Source: Bacteroidales bacterium
Lineage (GTDB): Bacteria; Bacteroidota; Bacteroidia; Bacteroidales; P3
NCBI GenBank assembly: GCA_017480785.1
Contig: JAFURZ010000007.1
Location: 124,001 to 188,000 of the forward strand
DNA: 64,000 nucleotides
Direction: 5' to 3'
Below the pieces are notes generated by a model. It did no database searches. It was not told the DNA's origin and saw only the letters and a list, made by a program, of their open reading frames with translations. Position 1 is the stretch's first letter, and each line of letters starts with the position of its first letter. Positions 3,053 through 61,914 of this stretch are shown in pieces. The position numbers and the translations under genes are program-made.

Positions 3053-3817
3053 ATGCTTAGCCTCGACGACATAAAGCAGGCCGCCCTGGCCGTGGGATTC
3101 GACGACTGCAGCGTGGCCCGCGCCGACGCCCTCACCGACGACGAGTACCCCCTGCGCGAGTGGCTCCGCCAAGGCTGGCACGGCGACCTCGGCTACATGG
3201 AACGCAACGTGGAGATGCGGCTCGACCCCCGCCTCCTCGTCCCCGGCGCCAAGAGTGTCATCTGCTGCGTCAGCGCCTACGGGCCGCCCGACCCGCAGCG
3301 GACCGACGGCGTGGCCGCCTACGCCCAGCACCGCGAGTACCACTCCGTGGTCAAGGCCATGCTCTTCGCCCTCCGCGAACGGCTGGGCATCGACGGCAAG
3401 GTGTGTTGCGACACCGTCCCCATCAGCGACAAGCATTGGGCCGCCCGCGCGGGCCTCGGCTGGATAGGTCGCCACACGCTCCTCATCACCCCCCGCTGGG
3501 GCACGTGGGTCAACCTGGGCGAGATAGTCACCACCGAGGAAGTGGAGAGTGAAGAACGGAGAATGGAGAACGGAGAACGGAGGACGGAGGTCGGTGACCG
3601 CTGCACCCGCTGCCACCGCTGCGTCGACGCCTGTCCCAACCATGCCCTCGCCCCCGACGGGCCTCCCATGCTCGACGTGCGCCGCTGCACGGCCTACTAC
3701 ACCACCCACCAACAGCGCCCCCTGCCACCCGACGTCGACACCCGCGGCTACACCCAGGGCTGCGACCTCTGCCAGCTCGCCTGCCCGTTCAACGGAATTG
3801 TAAAAATCCACCATTGA
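3053..3817 (+). CDS. queG: QueG-like epoxyqueuosine reductase, shortened and with a repeat insertion
   Basis: QueG reduces epoxyqueuosine to queuosine in tRNA wobble positions using cobalamin and two [4Fe-4S] clusters. This 254-residue protein has the N-terminal DUF1730 part, the active-site segment CCDTVPISDKHWAARAGLGW, and both cluster motifs: CTRCHRCVDACP (about 184-195) and CDLCQLACPF (about 240-249). Two oddities stand out. Residues about 164-181 (EEVESEERRMENGERRTEV) are encoded by a purine-rich repeat and have no QueG counterpart. The protein also stops just after the second cluster motif, without the 60 or more C-terminal residues usual in the family, and the common CPWN is CPFN. It may be a decaying or divergent QueG. 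Confidence 0.75.
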   Translation: MLSLDDIKQAALAVGFDDCSVARADALTDDEYPLREWLRQGWHGDLGYMERNVEMRLDPRLLVPGAKSVICCVSAYGPPDPQRTDGVAAYAQHREYHSVVKAMLFALRERLGIDGKVCCDTVPISDKHWAARAGLGWIGRHTLLITPRWGTWVNLGEIVTTEEVESEERRMENGERRTEVGDRCTRCHRCVDACPNHALAPDGPPMLDVRRCTAYYTTHQQRPLPPDVDTRGYTQGCDLCQLACPFNGIVKIHH

Positions 3818-3835
3818 TTTACAATGATTTAACCC

Positions 3836-3893
3836 TTGTTCTTTTACTTTTCTAAAAGAACAGTAAAAGAACGGCAGGAAAACAGCAAACGAA
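3836..3893. terminator. 3'-end inverted repeat of the GTTCTTTTAC family, copy 1
   Basis: Downstream of the queG-like stop, GTTCTTTTACT is followed by AGTAAAAGAAC, able to form a hairpin, then GGCAGGAAAACAGC. Closely related sequence recurs after dacB (about 11729-11785) and after rfbB (about 34119-34176). In all three cases it lies just beyond a plus-strand gene, so a transcript-end role is inferred. Confidence 0.5.
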
Positions 3894-11728: not shown

Positions 11729-11785
11729 TGTTCTTTTAGAAAAGTAAAAGAACAGTAAAAGAACAGCAGAAAAACAGGGGGATAA
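11729..11785. terminator. 3'-end inverted repeat of the GTTCTTTTAC family, copy 2
   Basis: GTTCTTTTAGAAAAGTAAAAGAACAG and a second TAAAAGAACAGCAG, with hairpin potential, lie 50 nt after the dacB stop. They share sequence with 3836-3893 and 34119-34176. Confidence 0.5.
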
Positions 11786-15696: not shown

Positions 15697-15770
15697 CGAA
15701 ATAATCCGCACATGCCGCCACAGATTCCGAAAAATATTTTCCCCTCTCCATCGGCCATCACCATCCCACT

Positions 15771-15881
15771 TCCTCCGCCATTTTAACGGTAGTATTACGC
15801 TAGTATTACGGTAGTATTACGCTTTAAAAGCGTAATACTACCGTAATACTAGCGTAATACTACCGTTAAAATGGTAGAGGA
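15771..15881. repeat. TAGTATTACG palindrome, copy A
   Basis: A perfect 45-bp inverted repeat: left arm 15781-15825, one spacer base, right arm 15827-15871. It extends outward with two mismatches through TCCTCCGCCA / TGGTAGAGGA. Each arm holds three tandem 11-bp units with core TAGTATTACG. It lies in the 435-bp gap between divergent pfkA and the decarboxylase gene. Apart from this element, the two promoters and a small 5' UTR hairpin, I see nothing else in the gap. Confidence 0.9.
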
Positions 15882-26033: not shown

Positions 26034-26609
26034 CTATTTTTCCTCCTCCGTCAGCCTTACCAGGCAGAAGAGCGAGTAGTTGACAATGTCCATATATCCC
26101 CCTTCGACCCCCTCGCTGACGAGCGTAACGCCCTCATTGTCTTCAATCTGCTTGATGCGGCGCAACTTCATCAGTATCAGGTCGACCATCGAGCCGACGC
26201 GCATCTGGCGCCAGGCCTCGCCATAGTCGTGGTTCTTCGACATCATCAGGTCGATAGTCCTCCCCAGGTGCTTGTCATAGAGCGCCATAGCCTCCTCCAG
26301 CGGCAACTCCAGCGGTGCCTTTTCACCTTGCCTTCCATCCAGCTCCTTCTGCACAAGGGCCATGATGGCATAGTTCACCATCGCCACGAACTCGCCCCGC
26401 AGATCGTCGCCCACCAGGTTCTCGCCGCTTTCCTGTACACTCCTGATTCTATTGGCTTTGATAAATATCTGGTCGGTCAGCGACGGCAGGCGCAAGATGC
26501 GCCACGAGGTGCCGTAGTCGTGCGTTTTCTTCTCGAAAAGCGCCCTGCAGCATGCCGCCTCGCGGTCTATCTCCTGCCGTGTAGTCATCATTGTGTCGTT
26601 CTTAGTCAT
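26034..26609 (-). CDS. DUF1599 protein, two-repeat MazG-like
   Basis: A 191-residue protein made of two homologous halves: KKTHDYGTSWRILRLPSL with FIKANRIRSVQESGEN, and SKNHDYGEAWRQMRVGSM with LMKLRRIKQIEDNEG. DUF1599 is thought to relate to MazG-type nucleotide pyrophosphohydrolases; activity is not established. It is the first gene of the minus-strand series reaching the C25 protease. Three Met codons (MTKNDTMMTTRQ) make the start uncertain by up to 7 residues. No consensus promoter is visible upstream. Confidence 0.8.
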   Translation of the reverse strand: MTKNDTMMTTRQEIDREAACCRALFEKKTHDYGTSWRILRLPSLTDQIFIKANRIRSVQESGENLVGDDLRGEFVAMVNYAIMALVQKELDGRQGEKAPLELPLEEAMALYDKHLGRTIDLMMSKNHDYGEAWRQMRVGSMVDLILMKLRRIKQIEDNEGVTLVSEGVEGGYMDIVNYSLFCLVRLTEEEK

Positions 26610-26756
26610 AACTGAGTGATAACGGCGGCACCACCATATTATTGTATAATAAGAAAACTTTTCTCGCTTTTTTTCTCTCCGGCGGGACGAATTTCACCCA
26701 ATATATGCGATTTTCGCCAAAAATACCCCCTCCATTCCCCCTGTTTCCTCTACCAT

Positions 26757-26845
26757 TTTTACGGTAGTATTACGCTAGTATTACGGTAGTATTACGCTTT
26801 TAAACCGTAATACTACCGTAATACTAGCGTAATACTACCGTAAAA
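26757..26845. repeat. TAGTATTACG palindrome, copy B
   Basis: Two 44-bp arms (26757-26800 and 26802-26845) around one base, with a single C/C clash at the inner ACGS position. Each arm has three TAGTATTACG units. The left flank CCTCTACCA matches the outer arm of the other copies. It sits in the 303-bp gap between divergent DUF1599 and folP; I see no other feature in that gap. Confidence 0.9.
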
Positions 26846-26912
26846 CAGGGGGAGGCGACCCGGGCGAGGGCGGGACGGGCGAGGGCGACGACGAGGAGGC
26901 ACACAATAAAAA

Positions 26913-27782
26913 ATGAAAAGCGGCGTTACGGAGGGTATGAATTATATCGAATTCCGACCTTTCAGCATCGTGGCGCACGGGCAACTCATTGAATACATGC
27001 GCCCTGCGGTGATGGGCATCCTCAACGTCACCGCCGACTCGTTCTACGACGGCGGGCGCCATGCCGACCCGGAGCAGATGCTGGCCCATGCCCGTTGGCT
27101 GCTGTCCGAAGGGGCCGACATCATCGACGTAGGGGTAGTGAGCTCGCGGCCCGGCGCCACACTGCTGCCACCCGACGAGGAGGCCCGGCGGCTCGCCGGT
27201 GCCGTGCGCCTGCTGCGCAAGGAGCTGCCCGACGCCGTGCTCTCGGTCGACACCTGCTACAGCCTCCCCGCCCGCGCCGCCGTCGAGGCCGGGGCCGACC
27301 TGGTGAACGACATCGGCGGAGGGCAGCTCGACGAGCAGATGTTCCAGACTGTGAGCGAACTGCAGGTGCCCTACATACTGATGCACGGCGGCGGCGAGAT
27401 GCACGGCACCGCACCCCGGGGCGAGGCCGACGTCATCGACCGCCTGACGCACTTCTTCTCGGAACGTATAGACCGCCTATATACTCTTGGTATCAAGGAC
27501 TTATGGATTGACCCAGGCTTCGGTTTCGCCAAGCCGGTGGCCGAGAACCACGAGCTGCTGCGCCGCCTCGACGAGCTGACCACGCTCTTCCGCGAGCCTC
27601 TGGTGGCCGCCCTCAGCCGCAAGAGCATGATATACAAGCCGCTGGGCATCACCCCCGACGAGGCGCTGACGGGCACCGTCGTCCTCGACGCACTGGCACT
27701 GGAGCGTGGCGCCCGCATCGTGCGCGTGCACGACCCGAGGCCCGCCGTGGAGACAATAAAACTCATGCTATCAAAATATTAA
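26913..27782 (+). CDS. folP: dihydropteroate synthase
   Basis: Condenses DHPPP with p-aminobenzoate in folate synthesis; target of sulfonamides. It has 289 residues from 26913, or 281 from the ATG at 26937. TIM-barrel signatures: VMGILNVTADSFYDGGRH (usually NVTPDSF, here Ala for Pro), DVGVVSSRPGA, LSVDTCYS, LVNDIGGG, DPGFGFAKPVAENHELL and the final RVHDPRPAVETIKL. Residues usually touching sulfonamides are only partly assignable by eye. It is followed 12 nt later by cdaA, a conserved Bacteroidota pair. Confidence 0.93.
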   Translation: MKSGVTEGMNYIEFRPFSIVAHGQLIEYMRPAVMGILNVTADSFYDGGRHADPEQMLAHARWLLSEGADIIDVGVVSSRPGATLLPPDEEARRLAGAVRLLRKELPDAVLSVDTCYSLPARAAVEAGADLVNDIGGGQLDEQMFQTVSELQVPYILMHGGGEMHGTAPRGEADVIDRLTHFFSERIDRLYTLGIKDLWIDPGFGFAKPVAENHELLRRLDELTTLFREPLVAALSRKSMIYKPLGITPDEALTGTVVLDALALERGARIVRVHDPRPAVETIKLMLSKY

Positions 27783-34118: not shown

Positions 34119-34176
34119 ACCTGTTCTTTTACTGTTCTTTTACTGTTCTTTACAAAATCGTAAAGAACTGGTATAA
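34119..34176. terminator. 3'-end inverted repeat of the GTTCTTTTAC family, copy 3
   Basis: GTTCTTTTACT occurs in tandem, then GTTCTTTAC ... GTAAAGAAC forms a hairpin with a short AAAATC loop. It lies about 140 nt after the rfbB stop and before the HAD gene. Confidence 0.5.
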
Positions 34177-44295: not shown

Positions 44296-44521
44296 GGCCT
44301 TCGCATTGCCCGATCATACAAGAATAAGCAATGCCAATGCCCACGCTGATGGTGATGGTACCATATCACGCACCAAGCCAATGGACGAGGACTAATTGCT
44401 TTATCGCGGTATGATCTGGAAGTTGCGAAGTTCAAGCAGCCGCAGATAAAACGTAGTACACGTCTTTTCTATTATGTCTTTGTCTCCCACCCACTTACCC
44501 AATCGGGCACTGGTTGGTTGA
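44250..44521 (-). ncRNA. candidate small RNA or attenuated leader
   Basis: A minus-strand unit of about 270 nt runs from a TATTTTTG -7 box (44534-44527) to the terminator at 44250-44295. Its ends show possible long-range pairing (AACCAAC and TGCCC near the 5' end; GGGCA and GTTGGTT near the 3' end). No known RNA family was recognised: it lacks the hallmarks of RNase P, tmRNA and SRP RNA. It could instead be a terminated leader controlling the 44154-40697 cluster. Within it, a frame without a start codon reads GTITISVGIGIAYS, which may be chance. Confidence 0.35.
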
Positions 44522-44604
44522 CGCTGCAAAAATAATAAAAAAAACTGACATGGGAAAAAACTTTTTTCCAGCCCGGGCAAATGCATCGGAAAAAACCTCT
44601 TTCC

Positions 44605-44735
44605 GGACCCCACATCCTCCGTCACTTTTACGGTAGTATTACGCTAGTATTACGGTAGTATTACGGTTTAAAAGCGTAATACTACCGTAATACTACCGTA
44701 ATACTAGCGTTAAAATGGCAGAGGATGTGGGGTGG
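44605..44735. repeat. TAGTATTACG palindrome, copy C
   Basis: Core arms about 44625-44669 and 44671-44716 contain three TAGTATTACG units each. Mismatches between the arms are G/C swaps at the base after ACG, plus one or two outer bases. The outer arms extend further than in the other copies: CCCCACATCCTC on the left against GAGGATGTGGGG on the right. It lies between divergent barrel and bamD genes. Confidence 0.88.
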
Positions 44736-44781
44736 CGGTGGGGAGGATACTGGGAGGGAATGGCGAAGGGTTGGAAACTTT

Positions 44782-44815
44782 TTTGCGCGTAATTCAAAAA
44801 AAAGTTGTATCTTTG
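44782..44815 (+). promoter_or_regulatory. promoter for bamD-rpoZ-coaBC
   Basis: TTTG at 44782-44785, 22 nt, TATCTTTG at 44808-44815, only 6 nt before the bamD ATG, so the leader is very short. Confidence 0.7.
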
Positions 44816-44821
44816 CACGCT

Positions 44822-45637
44822 ATGAATAAGGCGAAAAATATAATAAGCATCTGTGCAATATGCTTAGCGCTAAGCGCTTGCGGAGGCTACGAGAAGCTGC
44901 TCAACAGCAACGATTACGAAGGAAAGTACCAAGCGGCCATGCGCTACTATAACGACAACAGCTGGTCGAAAGCCATCCAGCTGTTCGAGAACCTGACGCT
45001 CCACTACCGCGGCAAGGAACATGCCGAGGACATTGCCTGGTACTATGCCGAGAGTCTTTTCAAGGAGAAGGACTACATCACCGCCAGCTACCAGTACCAG
45101 CGCTTTGCGCGCCAGTTCCCGTACAGCGAGCGCACCGAGAAGGCCGCCTGGCTGTCGGCCTACTGCAAGTACATCGACTCGCCCGACTACTCGCTCGACC
45201 AGAAGCGCACCAAAGAGGCCATCGAGGAGATGGAGTCGTTCGCCGAACGCTGGCCCCGCAGCGTGTACATCCCCGAACTGAACCGCTGCCTGGACGATAT
45301 GCGGGCCAAGCTGATAAAGAAAGACTACGAGATAGCCTACAACTATTATTTCACCGAGGAGTACAACGCCGCCTACGAGTCGTTCAAGCGCTTCCTGAAC
45401 TACTACCCCGAAGCCGACGAGCGCGAAGAGGCCATGTACTACCAGCTCGACGCCGGCTACCGCTACGCCATCGGCAGCCGCGAGGACAAGCAGAAGGAGC
45501 GCCTGCAGCAGGTGCTGAACGACTTCGAGAACTTCAGCAGCAGCTTCGCCGGCTCCAAGCGGCTCAGCGCCGCCCAGAACATCTACAGCAAGGCCCGCGC
45601 CGCACTGACCAACCTGGAAACGCAGAAAAAAGACTGA
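44822..45637 (+). CDS. bamD: outer-membrane assembly lipoprotein BamD
   Basis: A TPR-containing lipoprotein of the BAM complex that inserts beta-barrels. It has 271 residues from the ATG at 44822, with lipoprotein signal MNKAKNIISICAICLALSACGG. TPR-like helices span about 38-255 (YQAAMRYYNDNSWSKAIQLF, AWYYAESLFKEKDYITASYQ). It is followed by rpoZ and coaBC, the usual Bacteroidales order. The -7 box sits almost on the start codon. Confidence 0.93.
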   Translation: MNKAKNIISICAICLALSACGGYEKLLNSNDYEGKYQAAMRYYNDNSWSKAIQLFENLTLHYRGKEHAEDIAWYYAESLFKEKDYITASYQYQRFARQFPYSERTEKAAWLSAYCKYIDSPDYSLDQKRTKEAIEEMESFAERWPRSVYIPELNRCLDDMRAKLIKKDYEIAYNYYFTEEYNAAYESFKRFLNYYPEADEREEAMYYQLDAGYRYAIGSREDKQKERLQQVLNDFENFSSSFAGSKRLSAAQNIYSKARAALTNLETQKKD

Positions 45638-46044: not shown

Positions 46045-47220
46045 ATGAGGATTGTCGTCGGCATCACGGGAGGCATCGCGGCCTACAAAGCGCCGGAGCT
46101 GGTGCGCCTGCTGGTCAAAGCAGGCTACGAGGTGCGTTGCGCCGCCACTGAGCATGCGCTGGAGTTCGTCACGAGGGTCACCCTCGAGACGGTCAGCGGC
46201 GCTCCGCTCTACCACGACCTCTTCGCCTCCGGCGGCACCGAGCACATCTCGCTCAAAGACTGGGGCGACATGCTGGTGGTGGCTCCCGCCACGGCCAACA
46301 TCATCGGCAAGGTGGCTTCGGGCATCGCCGACGACGCCTTGAGCACCCTGCTGCTGGCCTTCTCGGGCAAGCCGGTCGTCATGGCTCCGGCCATGAACAG
46401 CCTCATGTGGGCGCACCCCGCCGTGCAACGTAACATTGCCACCCTGAAAAGCTGGGGTATCCGCATGGTGGGTCCCGCCGAGGGCGAGCTGGCCTGCGGC
46501 ACATCGGGTGTGGGACGCATGGCTGAACCCGAGGAAATCGTCAGGTCTGTTGCAACATTGTTGCAACACACAGGAACCCTGGCAGGGCAACGCTGGCTCG
46601 TCACTGCGGGTCCCACCTACGAGCGCATCGACTCGGTGCGCTTCATCGGCAACTATTCGTCGGGCAAGATGGGCTTCGCCCTGGCCGAAGCCTTGGCAGA
46701 GGCAGGCGCCGAAGTGGCGCTGGTTTCCGGCCCCACTTCGCTGACTATCGACCATCCGCGGGTGACACTGACCCGCGTGGAGAGCGCCCGCGAGATGTAT
46801 GCCGCCGCCACCTCGCTATTCCCGCAGTGCCGGGGCGCCATTCTCTCGGCCGCCGTTGCCGACTACCGGCCCGCCACGGCAGCCGACCACAAGCTCAAGA
46901 AGCAGGGCGACGAGGGCATGACGCTACAGCTGGTGCAGAACCCCGACATACTGGCCACCCTCGGTGGCATGAAGCAGGCGGGGCAGACCCTCGTGGGCTT
47001 CGCCCTCGAAACCGACCACGAGCTGGAGAATGCCCAAGGCAAGCTTCAGCGGAAGAACCTCGACTACATCGTCCTCAACTCGCTGCGCGACAAGGGCGCC
47101 GGCTTCGGCGTCGACACCAACAAGGTGACCATCCTCGCCCGCGACGGCCGTCGTGAAGAGAGCCCCCTGATGAGCAAGCGGGAGGTGGCCGAACTGATAG
47201 TGAAGACTGTAGCCCCGTAG
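46045..47220 (+). CDS. coaBC: bifunctional phosphopantothenoylcysteine decarboxylase/synthase
   Basis: Two steps of coenzyme A synthesis. It has 391 residues: an N-terminal flavoprotein CoaC domain (GITGGIAAYKAPELVRLL, catalytic His region, PAMNSLMW, active Cys in ACGTSGVGRMAEP), and a C-terminal CoaB domain (VTAGPTYERIDSVRFIGNYS, SAAVADYRP, KKQGDE). The stop codon TAG is the centre of a palindrome (GCCCCGTAGGGGC, 47212-47224) that belongs to a repeat following the gene. Confidence 0.95.
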   Translation: MRIVVGITGGIAAYKAPELVRLLVKAGYEVRCAATEHALEFVTRVTLETVSGAPLYHDLFASGGTEHISLKDWGDMLVVAPATANIIGKVASGIADDALSTLLLAFSGKPVVMAPAMNSLMWAHPAVQRNIATLKSWGIRMVGPAEGELACGTSGVGRMAEPEEIVRSVATLLQHTGTLAGQRWLVTAGPTYERIDSVRFIGNYSSGKMGFALAEALAEAGAEVALVSGPTSLTIDHPRVTLTRVESAREMYAAATSLFPQCRGAILSAAVADYRPATAADHKLKKQGDEGMTLQLVQNPDILATLGGMKQAGQTLVGFALETDHELENAQGKLQRKNLDYIVLNSLRDKGAGFGVDTNKVTILARDGRREESPLMSKREVAELIVKTVAP

Positions 47221-47291
47221 GGGCGACAGATATTAGCCGTGGGTGAAACCCACGGTAGACAACAATAAGGTAATTCAAGCCCCGTAGGGGC
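47212..47291. repeat. GCCCCGTAGGGGC repeat pair with central hairpin
   Basis: GCCCCGTAGGGGC at 47212-47224 and again at 47279-47291. Between them CCGTGGGT GAA ACCCACGG (47237-47255) forms a hairpin. The first copy contains the coaBC stop codon. Confidence 0.75.
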
Positions 47292-61370: not shown

Positions 61371-61914
61371 ATATTATTGTCCGACCCGCTTTTCCCTTTC
61401 CACCAGCGCCCGTACAGCTCCAGAACCTGCAGGAGCAAAAGCGAAAATTTCAATTCAAACCGTCAGTTAACATCTATTAAGAATTCCCGATTCCATCCCA
61501 CCTTCGGCCCGGAACGCACAGGAACGCCGCCCCACCCTATTGTTAATTTCTCTTAACGAACCCCTGACCAAAGACTACTCAACTCTTACAAAACTAAGAC
61601 ATTAGTAGGAGTTGAGTAGGAGAAGAGTAAGAGGGGAGTAAGAGGGGAGTAAGAGGGGGTGGCAATCAAGTACTGGGTATCAATGGATTGTGCCGATGGT
61701 CGACTTGTGATTATGTTAAATAGGATGGCGGCTTGATGGCAAGTCGGCAGGCATCTTCGGGCGAGGAAAATGTGGAAACGGCATGTTGACAATACTGCCG
61801 TATTTAACATTTATTTACTGCATAAACCGTATTTTCCGGTCCGAAAGGACTCCGTTTTCGGCAGGCGGCAGCGACGGCGTCAGGAGAGAAAAAGGAGGAC
61901 GAGGAGAGATTTTT
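61371..61914. other. intergenic region with an inverted repeat and purine-rich tandem repeats
   Basis: Between divergent promoters. Contains CTACTCAACTC (61575-61585) inverted at 61609-61619, then a purine-rich stretch (61609-61658) with the 11-bp period GAGTAAGAGGG repeated. The rest shows no gene or known element. Confidence 0.6.

Follow-up and report, generated by a model that had tools for sequence, protein, structure and literature searches.

An 11-base rhythm that is kept while its letters change, and in one genome is in step with promoters, suggests a possible undescribed kind of DNA control site in a Bacteroidales genus

The stretch of DNA analysed here, referred to as the window, comprises 64,000 nucleotides from a Bacteroidales bacterium (GCA_017480785.1, contig JAFURZ010000007.1, positions 124,001 to 188,000) and contains three palindromes of about 90 bp, each with three tandem 11-bp units per arm. 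The unit is TAGTATTACGS with the core TAGTATTACG, and we call these arrays family A (Table 1). The original prediction placed the palindromes correctly, and the 18 cores that it took to be identical correspond to 18 exact TAGTATTACGS units, three per arm and all within the three palindromes, with variation among the copies confined, as claimed, to the G or C after ACG and a few bases at the ends. Scanning the window for the unit with up to two mismatches gave 31 matches against a mean of 11.6 in shuffled sequence, and none of 100 shuffles reached 31. Folded as single strands with DNA parameters, palindrome 1 forms 44 base pairs and palindromes 2 and 3 form 40 each, with several mismatches in the third, and in each case none of 200 shuffles was as stable; an Rfam search of the palindromes returned no match. 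All three window copies do lie in divergent gaps. The proposed identities of the flanking genes stand for PFK, Orn_Arg_deC_N, DUF1599, Pterin_bind and YfiO, which score above the Pfam cut-offs; the barrel-like gene scores below (25.5 bits vs a cut-off of 28.7). Elsewhere in the window, positions 47211-47255 on the minus strand match the Rfam Acido-Lenti-1 RNA (RF01687, 45.3 bits vs a gathering score of 37).

Table 1. Coordinates of the 11-bp-unit arrays in the window.
Feature	Extent	Palindrome	Units and arms	Flanking genes (strand)
A-family array, copy 1	15767..15874	15781-15871	outer degenerate units beside the palindrome	pfkA (-) / PLP-dependent decarboxylase gene (+)
A-family array, copy 2	26744..26859	26757-26845		DUF1599 (-) / folP (+)
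A-family array, copy 3	44611..44729	~44625-44716		barrel-like gene (-) / bamD (+)
B-family palindrome	3838..3872		units GTTCTTTTAC	
B-family array	11729..11766		one unit left, two right	
B-family array	34122..34171		three units left, short right arm	
Another 11-bp array	61576..61671		units like GTAGGAGTTGA and GTAAGAGGGGA; short left arm, ~five units right	

The host genome amounts to 2.25 Mb in 19 contigs, of which about 29% was read directly and the remainder through pattern searches. The inner hairpin pattern (16 set bases) occurs in it 45 times without mismatch and never with one or two mismatches, and a one-armed copy is found in addition to the 45 palindromes (contig C7, position 114245). 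Three exact units make up 87 of the 90 arms; the other 3 have fewer, the unit-number variants being arms with two units or one. Outer arms that lack the full A core pointed to mosaics in which A is combined with further 11-bp units, B (GTTCTTTTACT) and C (AGTTCGACTTG), and inside such mosaic palindromes A units are also present at one or two per arm. We compared the S bases of one arm with those of the other in the 42 six-unit copies. The outermost S is identical in 41 copies (expectation 37.3), the second in 38 (expectation 21.1) and the third, an invariant position, in all 42, whereas agreement at the innermost S base is not beyond chance (26, with 29.0 expected); the A/T at the arm base is the same on both arms in 37 of 44 copies. 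The agreement at the S positions thus indicates that the arms are kept alike, except beside the loop. Identity among the copies is 1.00 in the core and fades about 45-65 bp from the centre with no clean edge, and the flanks carry C-tracts every 11 bp, in unchanged register, out to about 100 bp from the centre. None of 2000 rotations matched this phasing in the intervals 56-111, 67-111 and 78-111 bp, where the other letters are near random.

Family A is confined to the host among the 120 genomes of the genus. A search with up to one mismatch matched 2 of them, the host and one other genome, in which the match sits at a single place, has a different spacer and is at the level of the reversed-pattern control. 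No exact A dimer occurs in the genome_contigs collection, which may be without records close to the host genome; by folP, the named relatives closest to the host are two MAG records from Bacteroidales (68% protein identity), and the nearest relative, about 83% identical at folP, has a gap that is not alignable. Two IMG/VR contigs of related phages (L347 12807-13067 and L346 1259-1493) carry two tandem A-type 11-bp units each, neighboured by an 11-bp-unit array in which full identity is reached at period 22; beside the arrays stand genes for terminase, portal and head (found in L347). A phage origin of the arrays was considered and rejected: the exact A dimer is present in these two related viral contigs, but five patterns for other units gave no viral match.

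The copy number and its restriction to one genome bring in the main rival to the explanation that we propose below, namely that the arrays are satellite-like selfish or neutral repeats. The 11-bp units would multiply at the palindrome centre via hairpin-templated or slippage synthesis, the arms would be kept alike by template switching, families would spread from gap to gap by conversion or transposition, and copies would survive only where they are harmless, upstream of promoters and after stops. The 45 exact-hairpin copies in the host with none in other genomes of the genus, the mosaics of A, B and C units and the outward decay of the A copies all favour this account, which we hold to be possible although doubtful as the whole explanation for reasons that emerge from the promoters and the relatives.

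Gene context was assigned with a home-made, crude codon-usage caller that missed some neighbours. None of the 46 A sites (the 45 palindromes and the one-armed copy) lies inside a called gene; 26 are in divergent, 16 in co-directional and 3 in convergent gaps, and 1 is at a contig edge. The claim that the element is always divergent and never at a gene end is therefore wrong genome-wide, while enrichment is right: divergent gaps account for about 30% of intergenic bases, copy-bearing gaps included, yet hold 26 of 45 copies, an approximately two-fold excess over chance (p of 1e-4 and 2e-4). Counting only copy-free gaps lowers the divergent share to 8% (p 4e-17), in a sample that is biased by the choice of regions. 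Copies in 24 divergent gaps lie more centrally than chance would place them (P 2e-4 when 60 bp at each end are left out), and in 15 co-directional gaps the copy is at a median of 41 bp from the stop codon and 190 bp from the next start, the distance to the start codon being similar in divergent gaps (median 181 bp). We saw no functional theme among 20 neighbouring proteins, a point in favour of selfish repeats and one that counts against a regulatory platform.

The -7 promoter motif of the Bacteroidota is TAnnTTTG. It is present on the gene strand in 43 of the 65 sides that run from an A copy to a start codon, compared with 3 for the antisense, 12 for the reversed and 5 for the complemented motif, at a minimum of 34 bp and a median of 106 bp from the arm edge. 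Its distance from the palindrome centre is non-random modulo 11, with 23 of 43 at residues 4-5 when gene calls are used (p 2e-5 at period 11.0), although this and the following p-values are somewhat optimistic since the register was spotted in the motif list and tested afterwards. The register holds for the 37 motifs beyond 110 bp (p 8e-5), with p 0.02 for the 25 beyond 140 bp. Made independently of gene calls, the test takes in 45 of 90 sides and gives p 9e-6, with 11.1 as the best period; beyond 140 bp the register is weak (p 0.015 and 0.07). The longer motif TAnnTTTGC gave p 3e-6 for 39 sides and p 4e-5 for the 34 sides beyond 110 bp. Counting tied distances once gave p 0.002. In 13 pairs with equal distances the DNA from copy to motif is 0.33-0.65 identical, so the intervening DNA is no duplicated block. 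Among the control strings tried beyond 110 bp, neither CAAA (p 0.30) nor any TTTG that lies outside the motif (p 0.63) is phased; TTG (p 0.006) and AAAA (p 7e-5) are phased too, in runs that overlap and are non-independent, and the phase may thus be general to A/T-rich promoter DNA. Start codons show no register with the A palindromes.

The register was not found in arrays of the relatives (27 arrays, 32 of 54 sides, p 0.67), among their within-genome pairs (17 pairs, mean cosine -0.08, P 0.69) or in their two-sided arrays (n=9, P 0.18), nor in the host's own B, C and D arrays (7 of 26 sides, p 0.25) or in the host's own loci with identical-centre copies collapsed (10 arrays, 11 sides, p 0.70); the numbers in these tests are small, and the families differ in a reference phase that is itself uncertain. 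We accordingly restrict the register claim to family A. Negative supercoiling is held to show itself in periods of 10.7-11 bp (PMC10128011), and in bacterial reporters the looping of enhancers rises and falls with a period of about 10-11 bp (PMC4740811). Before the start codons of folP and its divergent neighbour, ACAATAA ... CGTTA is seen in the window (26600-27000) and at the corresponding loci of relatives (L162-L190); by eye, it replaces TAnnTTTG there in many relatives.

A register with the -7 motif could also result from targeted integration at set promoter distances, after which gain or loss of 11-bp units would shift the distances in steps of 11, and the arms with two units or one are variants of the kind that such a process would leave. 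We find this improbable, given that arms of three units in 87 of 90 cases mean that gain and loss of core units cannot yield the range of distances, and that no integrase was identified. A search for the Y1 transposase (PF01797) found 3 genes in the host and none in 7 of 11 array-bearing relatives, three of these being at least 93% complete, which speaks against targeted integration and led us to reject Y1/RAYT mobilisation as a general cause.

The position of the -7 motifs bears equally on the suggestion that the palindromes work as RNA hairpins, that is as a terminator, attenuator or mRNA stabiliser. Stems of 40-44 pairs (folded with DNA parameters) and the co-directional copies close behind stop codons are what it would call for; copies in divergent gaps, however, lie upstream of both -7 motifs where these were found, the stem is followed by AAAATGG or similar with no T-run, and 19 of 44 arrays of relatives are not palindromic beyond 60 shuffles, so that we think an RNA role very unlikely. 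An intrinsic terminator in particular was rejected, the sequence after the stem in 45 A copies being AAA and then mostly ATGG, and no terminator-like site being present in 44400-44950, the one gap scanned.

Family A has company in the host genome. The B and C units have many copies of their own, and a fourth 11-bp unit, CAACTCCGACA, was met in stretches picked irrespective of arrays. Arrays of the CAACTCCGACA type with common flanks, ending near TTAGGTCGTGCGCGACCTAA, are seen at L271 200-290, L273 60-150 and L274 60-150; they stand at the starts of contigs C15, C18 and C12, and the family may consequently belong to a longer repeat at which the assembly breaks. A separate host repeat with CCCCTCTCCGATTGGAGAGGGG hairpins occurs at L042 7191-7286, L046 4532-4599, L055 5124-5227, L068 3261-3354 and other places.

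We scanned for tandem periodicity with periods of 5 to 24, a 44-bp window and an identity of 0.70. In 160 kb of the host's own DNA free of A copies we counted 11 period-11 and 5 period-7 arrays; the 387 kb from 20 relatives gave 25 and 23, respectively, with one each at seven other periods, and 10 further stretches from relatives (113 kb) gave 3 and 3 with 4 others. The corresponding counts for 20 genomes of 11 other genera (343 kb) are 0 at period 11, 1 at period 7, 2 at period 22 and 19 at others. Extrapolation from the scan gives about 160-200 arrays per genome. Among hairpins, 10 of 14 in the 20 relatives have 11 as their best period vs 0 of 7 in the other genera. Among 80 named loci (888 kb) there are 4 period-11 arrays, two of them in loci with arrays of the host genus, one in a Dysgonamonadaceae genome and one that is weak and A/T-rich. 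The Dysgonamonadaceae MAG carries a long GTTCTTTCTCC-like 11-bp array with an inverted end upstream of folP (L096 138-457), and the period-11 class may on this ground extend past the genus. A single motif common to all units was looked for and rejected, the signal over 27 units being weak (5.27 bits vs 4.58 ± 0.16, none of 200 shuffles as high) and the units partly related by descent. Tandem Repeats Finder reported nothing above threshold on locus L257, and for the single C-family array seen in the nearest relative no orthologue was found in the examined part of the host genome. Family A is thus one of several intergenic families of 11-bp units across one uncultured Bacteroidales genus, often just upstream of promoters.

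Arrays of period 7, such as AAGGTGA, are also frequent in the genus (L191-L210 and L269-L276, e.g. L206 2395-2503; window 3531-3611), as the counts of 23 in 387 kb of relatives vs 1 in 343 kb of other genera show. Of the placed period-7 arrays of relatives 13 of 16 are in co-directional gaps, and their contrast in gap type with period-11 arrays has a Fisher p of 0.001, or 0.08 when folP gaps are left out.

For each of the three window gaps we examined the orthologous loci of the nearest relatives, one genome per species and mostly MAGs, counting as upstream whatever lay within 1.5 kb. A period-11 array lies upstream in 42 of 88 orthologous loci, in letters other than those of the host (folP 14 of 29, pfkA 13 of 30, bamD 15 of 29); downstream there are 0, 1 and 0 at folP, pfkA and bamD, and other periods appear upstream in one or two regions each. 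As a control, the last 1.5 kb of the loci, which overlaps other parts in loci cut by contig ends, had period 11 at 3 and period 7 at 5 of the 88 loci, and none of 440 shuffles of the upstream regions gave an array. The figure of 42 in 88 does not make the three window gaps special, because arrays are present in other gaps too. In 20-kb loci of the relatives period-11 arrays occupy 14 of the 27 gaps that are divergent, 8 of the 248 that are co-directional and 0 of the 19 that are convergent, these loci being chosen round folP, with 9 of the 14 divergent matches in the folP gap and three end-of-locus arrays unplaced. The host's own 224 kb gave 5 of 16 divergent, 7 of 128 co-directional and 2 of 16 convergent gaps, with three arrays at contig starts unplaced.

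The units at orthologous gaps differ among genomes, some clades having one in common, and it is the genome that the letters follow. Sharing of 8-mers between gaps of the same genome averages 0.216 (27 pairs), compared with 0.019 for the same gap across genomes (343 pairs) and 0.016 for other pairs (709), and none of 2000 permutations of genome labels reached the within-genome value; the exceptions, with next to no sharing, are pairs in G014, G037, G043 and G108 and the pfkA array of G091. Palindromy beyond all 60 shuffles was found for 25 of the 44 arrays at orthologous gaps. Across 70 bp from the centre of 26 distinct palindromic arrays of relatives, arm pairing declines from 0.84 to 0.43 and lag-11 identity from 0.77 to 0.44, a profile whose inmost bins are favoured by the choice of palindromic arrays. 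Both this outward decay and the letters common to gaps within genomes add to the case for selfish repeats.

Selfish repeats alone, however, do not explain why units of unlike letters have one period, why C-tracts stay phased in degenerate flanks, or why unrelated genes have their promoters in register with the A arrays. We propose, at about even confidence, that the arrays are concertedly evolving DNA-binding platforms upstream of promoters. Four observations suggest a function at the level of DNA: the period is fixed although the letters are not, the arrays stand upstream of promoters, degenerate flanks remain phased, and family A is in register with -7 motifs. In this model a protein, single or as an oligomer, would contact a few bases per helical turn of the array, its subunits would line up along one face of the DNA, and the bound platform would act on the flanking promoters, either as shared upstream regulation or as insulation of two divergent promoters. 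Conservation would act on the 11-bp phase and on a small number of bases in each unit rather than on the full sequence. The letters of the unit would turn over by concerted evolution, which would tend to give each species or clade a unit of its own at several gaps. Whereas anatomy, copy number, period, place, within-genome sharing of letters and the -7 register of family A are observed, the protein of such a platform, its mode of contact and its effect on transcription are what we infer. The original suggestion of an operator array or insulator is upheld in part, as the 11-bp period, the place upstream of -7 motifs and the register of family A fit it, but the divergent-only link (26 of 46) does not.

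Evidence against the platform includes, besides the neighbours, that the register is seen in family A alone, and that a single sequence-reading protein would not easily account for a genome with several families of unlike units. Family A in a single genome, within-genome sharing and decay from the centre do point to satellite-like dynamics, which are compatible with a platform: its sequence would be renewed by amplification. The 11-base rhythm that is kept while letters change, with promoters in step in the host genome, suggests a kind of DNA control site that has not been described. More speculatively, and with less confidence than in the platform itself, this could be a new kind of cis-acting site in which mainly helical phase is conserved, one contact per 11 bp and near the turn of DNA in vivo, while the letters drift in concert genome-wide, a parallel to fast-evolving satellite platforms but in register with housekeeping promoters across the genus. 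If so, promoters throughout a genus would be controlled or insulated by sites invisible to ordinary cross-species motif searches, since it is period and place, and not letters, that are preserved, and the arrays would offer a natural test of helical-phase reading in vivo and of genome-wide concerted change of letters. Even if selfish, they form a repeat class of fixed period with a clear, checkable signature.

We found no description of such 11-bp arrays in the part of the literature that is openly accessible. Like MITEs, the arrays are short, non-coding, multicopy inverted repeats; they differ in a fixed period across unlike sequences. A MITE-like element, as originally suggested, is one possible reading of family A, its inverted repeat agreeing with this while its identity fades without a clean end. 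REP/REPIN elements are likewise many intergenic palindromes in families, some of them species-specific (PMC3733652). REPs, however, are 20-40 bp long with GTAG or CGTC tags and are found mostly in unidirectional or convergent gaps, downstream of genes (PMC3733652), whereas A palindromes are about 90 bp of 11-bp units, their GTAG is inside the repeat at the unit junction and is no unpaired end tag, and 26 of 46 sites are divergent. The heptameric G-rich repeats of Xanthomonas and Nostoc are also tandem units of fixed length in non-coding DNA, but with a unit of 7, GGGNATC, that is under-represented between divergent genes (PMC4692102), as against 11 here; the period-7 arrays of the host genus are a kind separate from its period-11 arrays. 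PINSR of Prevotella intermedia and P. nigrescens, from the same bacterial order, is intergenic and lineage-specific with 177-184 copies, and differs in being a 188-bp repeat without terminal inverted repeats, for which the accessible description gives no 11-bp unit (PMC4755523). Tandem 11-bp repeats are known as the operators of CarH, PhoP (PHO boxes) and SARP/AfsR (PMC9304148, PMC2605767, PMC10936776), and the present arrays resemble these in having tandem 11-bp units at promoters, with few bases specified per unit in CarH operators (nnnnTnnACAn; PMC9304148, PMC2605767, PMC10936776). The operators described there have two to four repeats, overlap promoter elements and serve few target genes. 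The present arrays differ from them in their extrapolated number per genome, in often being inverted about a centre and in letters that vary by species and family, and A arrays do not overlap the -35/-10 elements, the arm edge being at least 34 bp from the -7 motif. The arrays join known kinds, intergenic palindromic repeat families and operators of 11-bp repeats, while differing from REPs and from intrinsic terminators, and a CarH-type geometry clear of the core promoter sets them apart from the known 11-bp operators as these are described.
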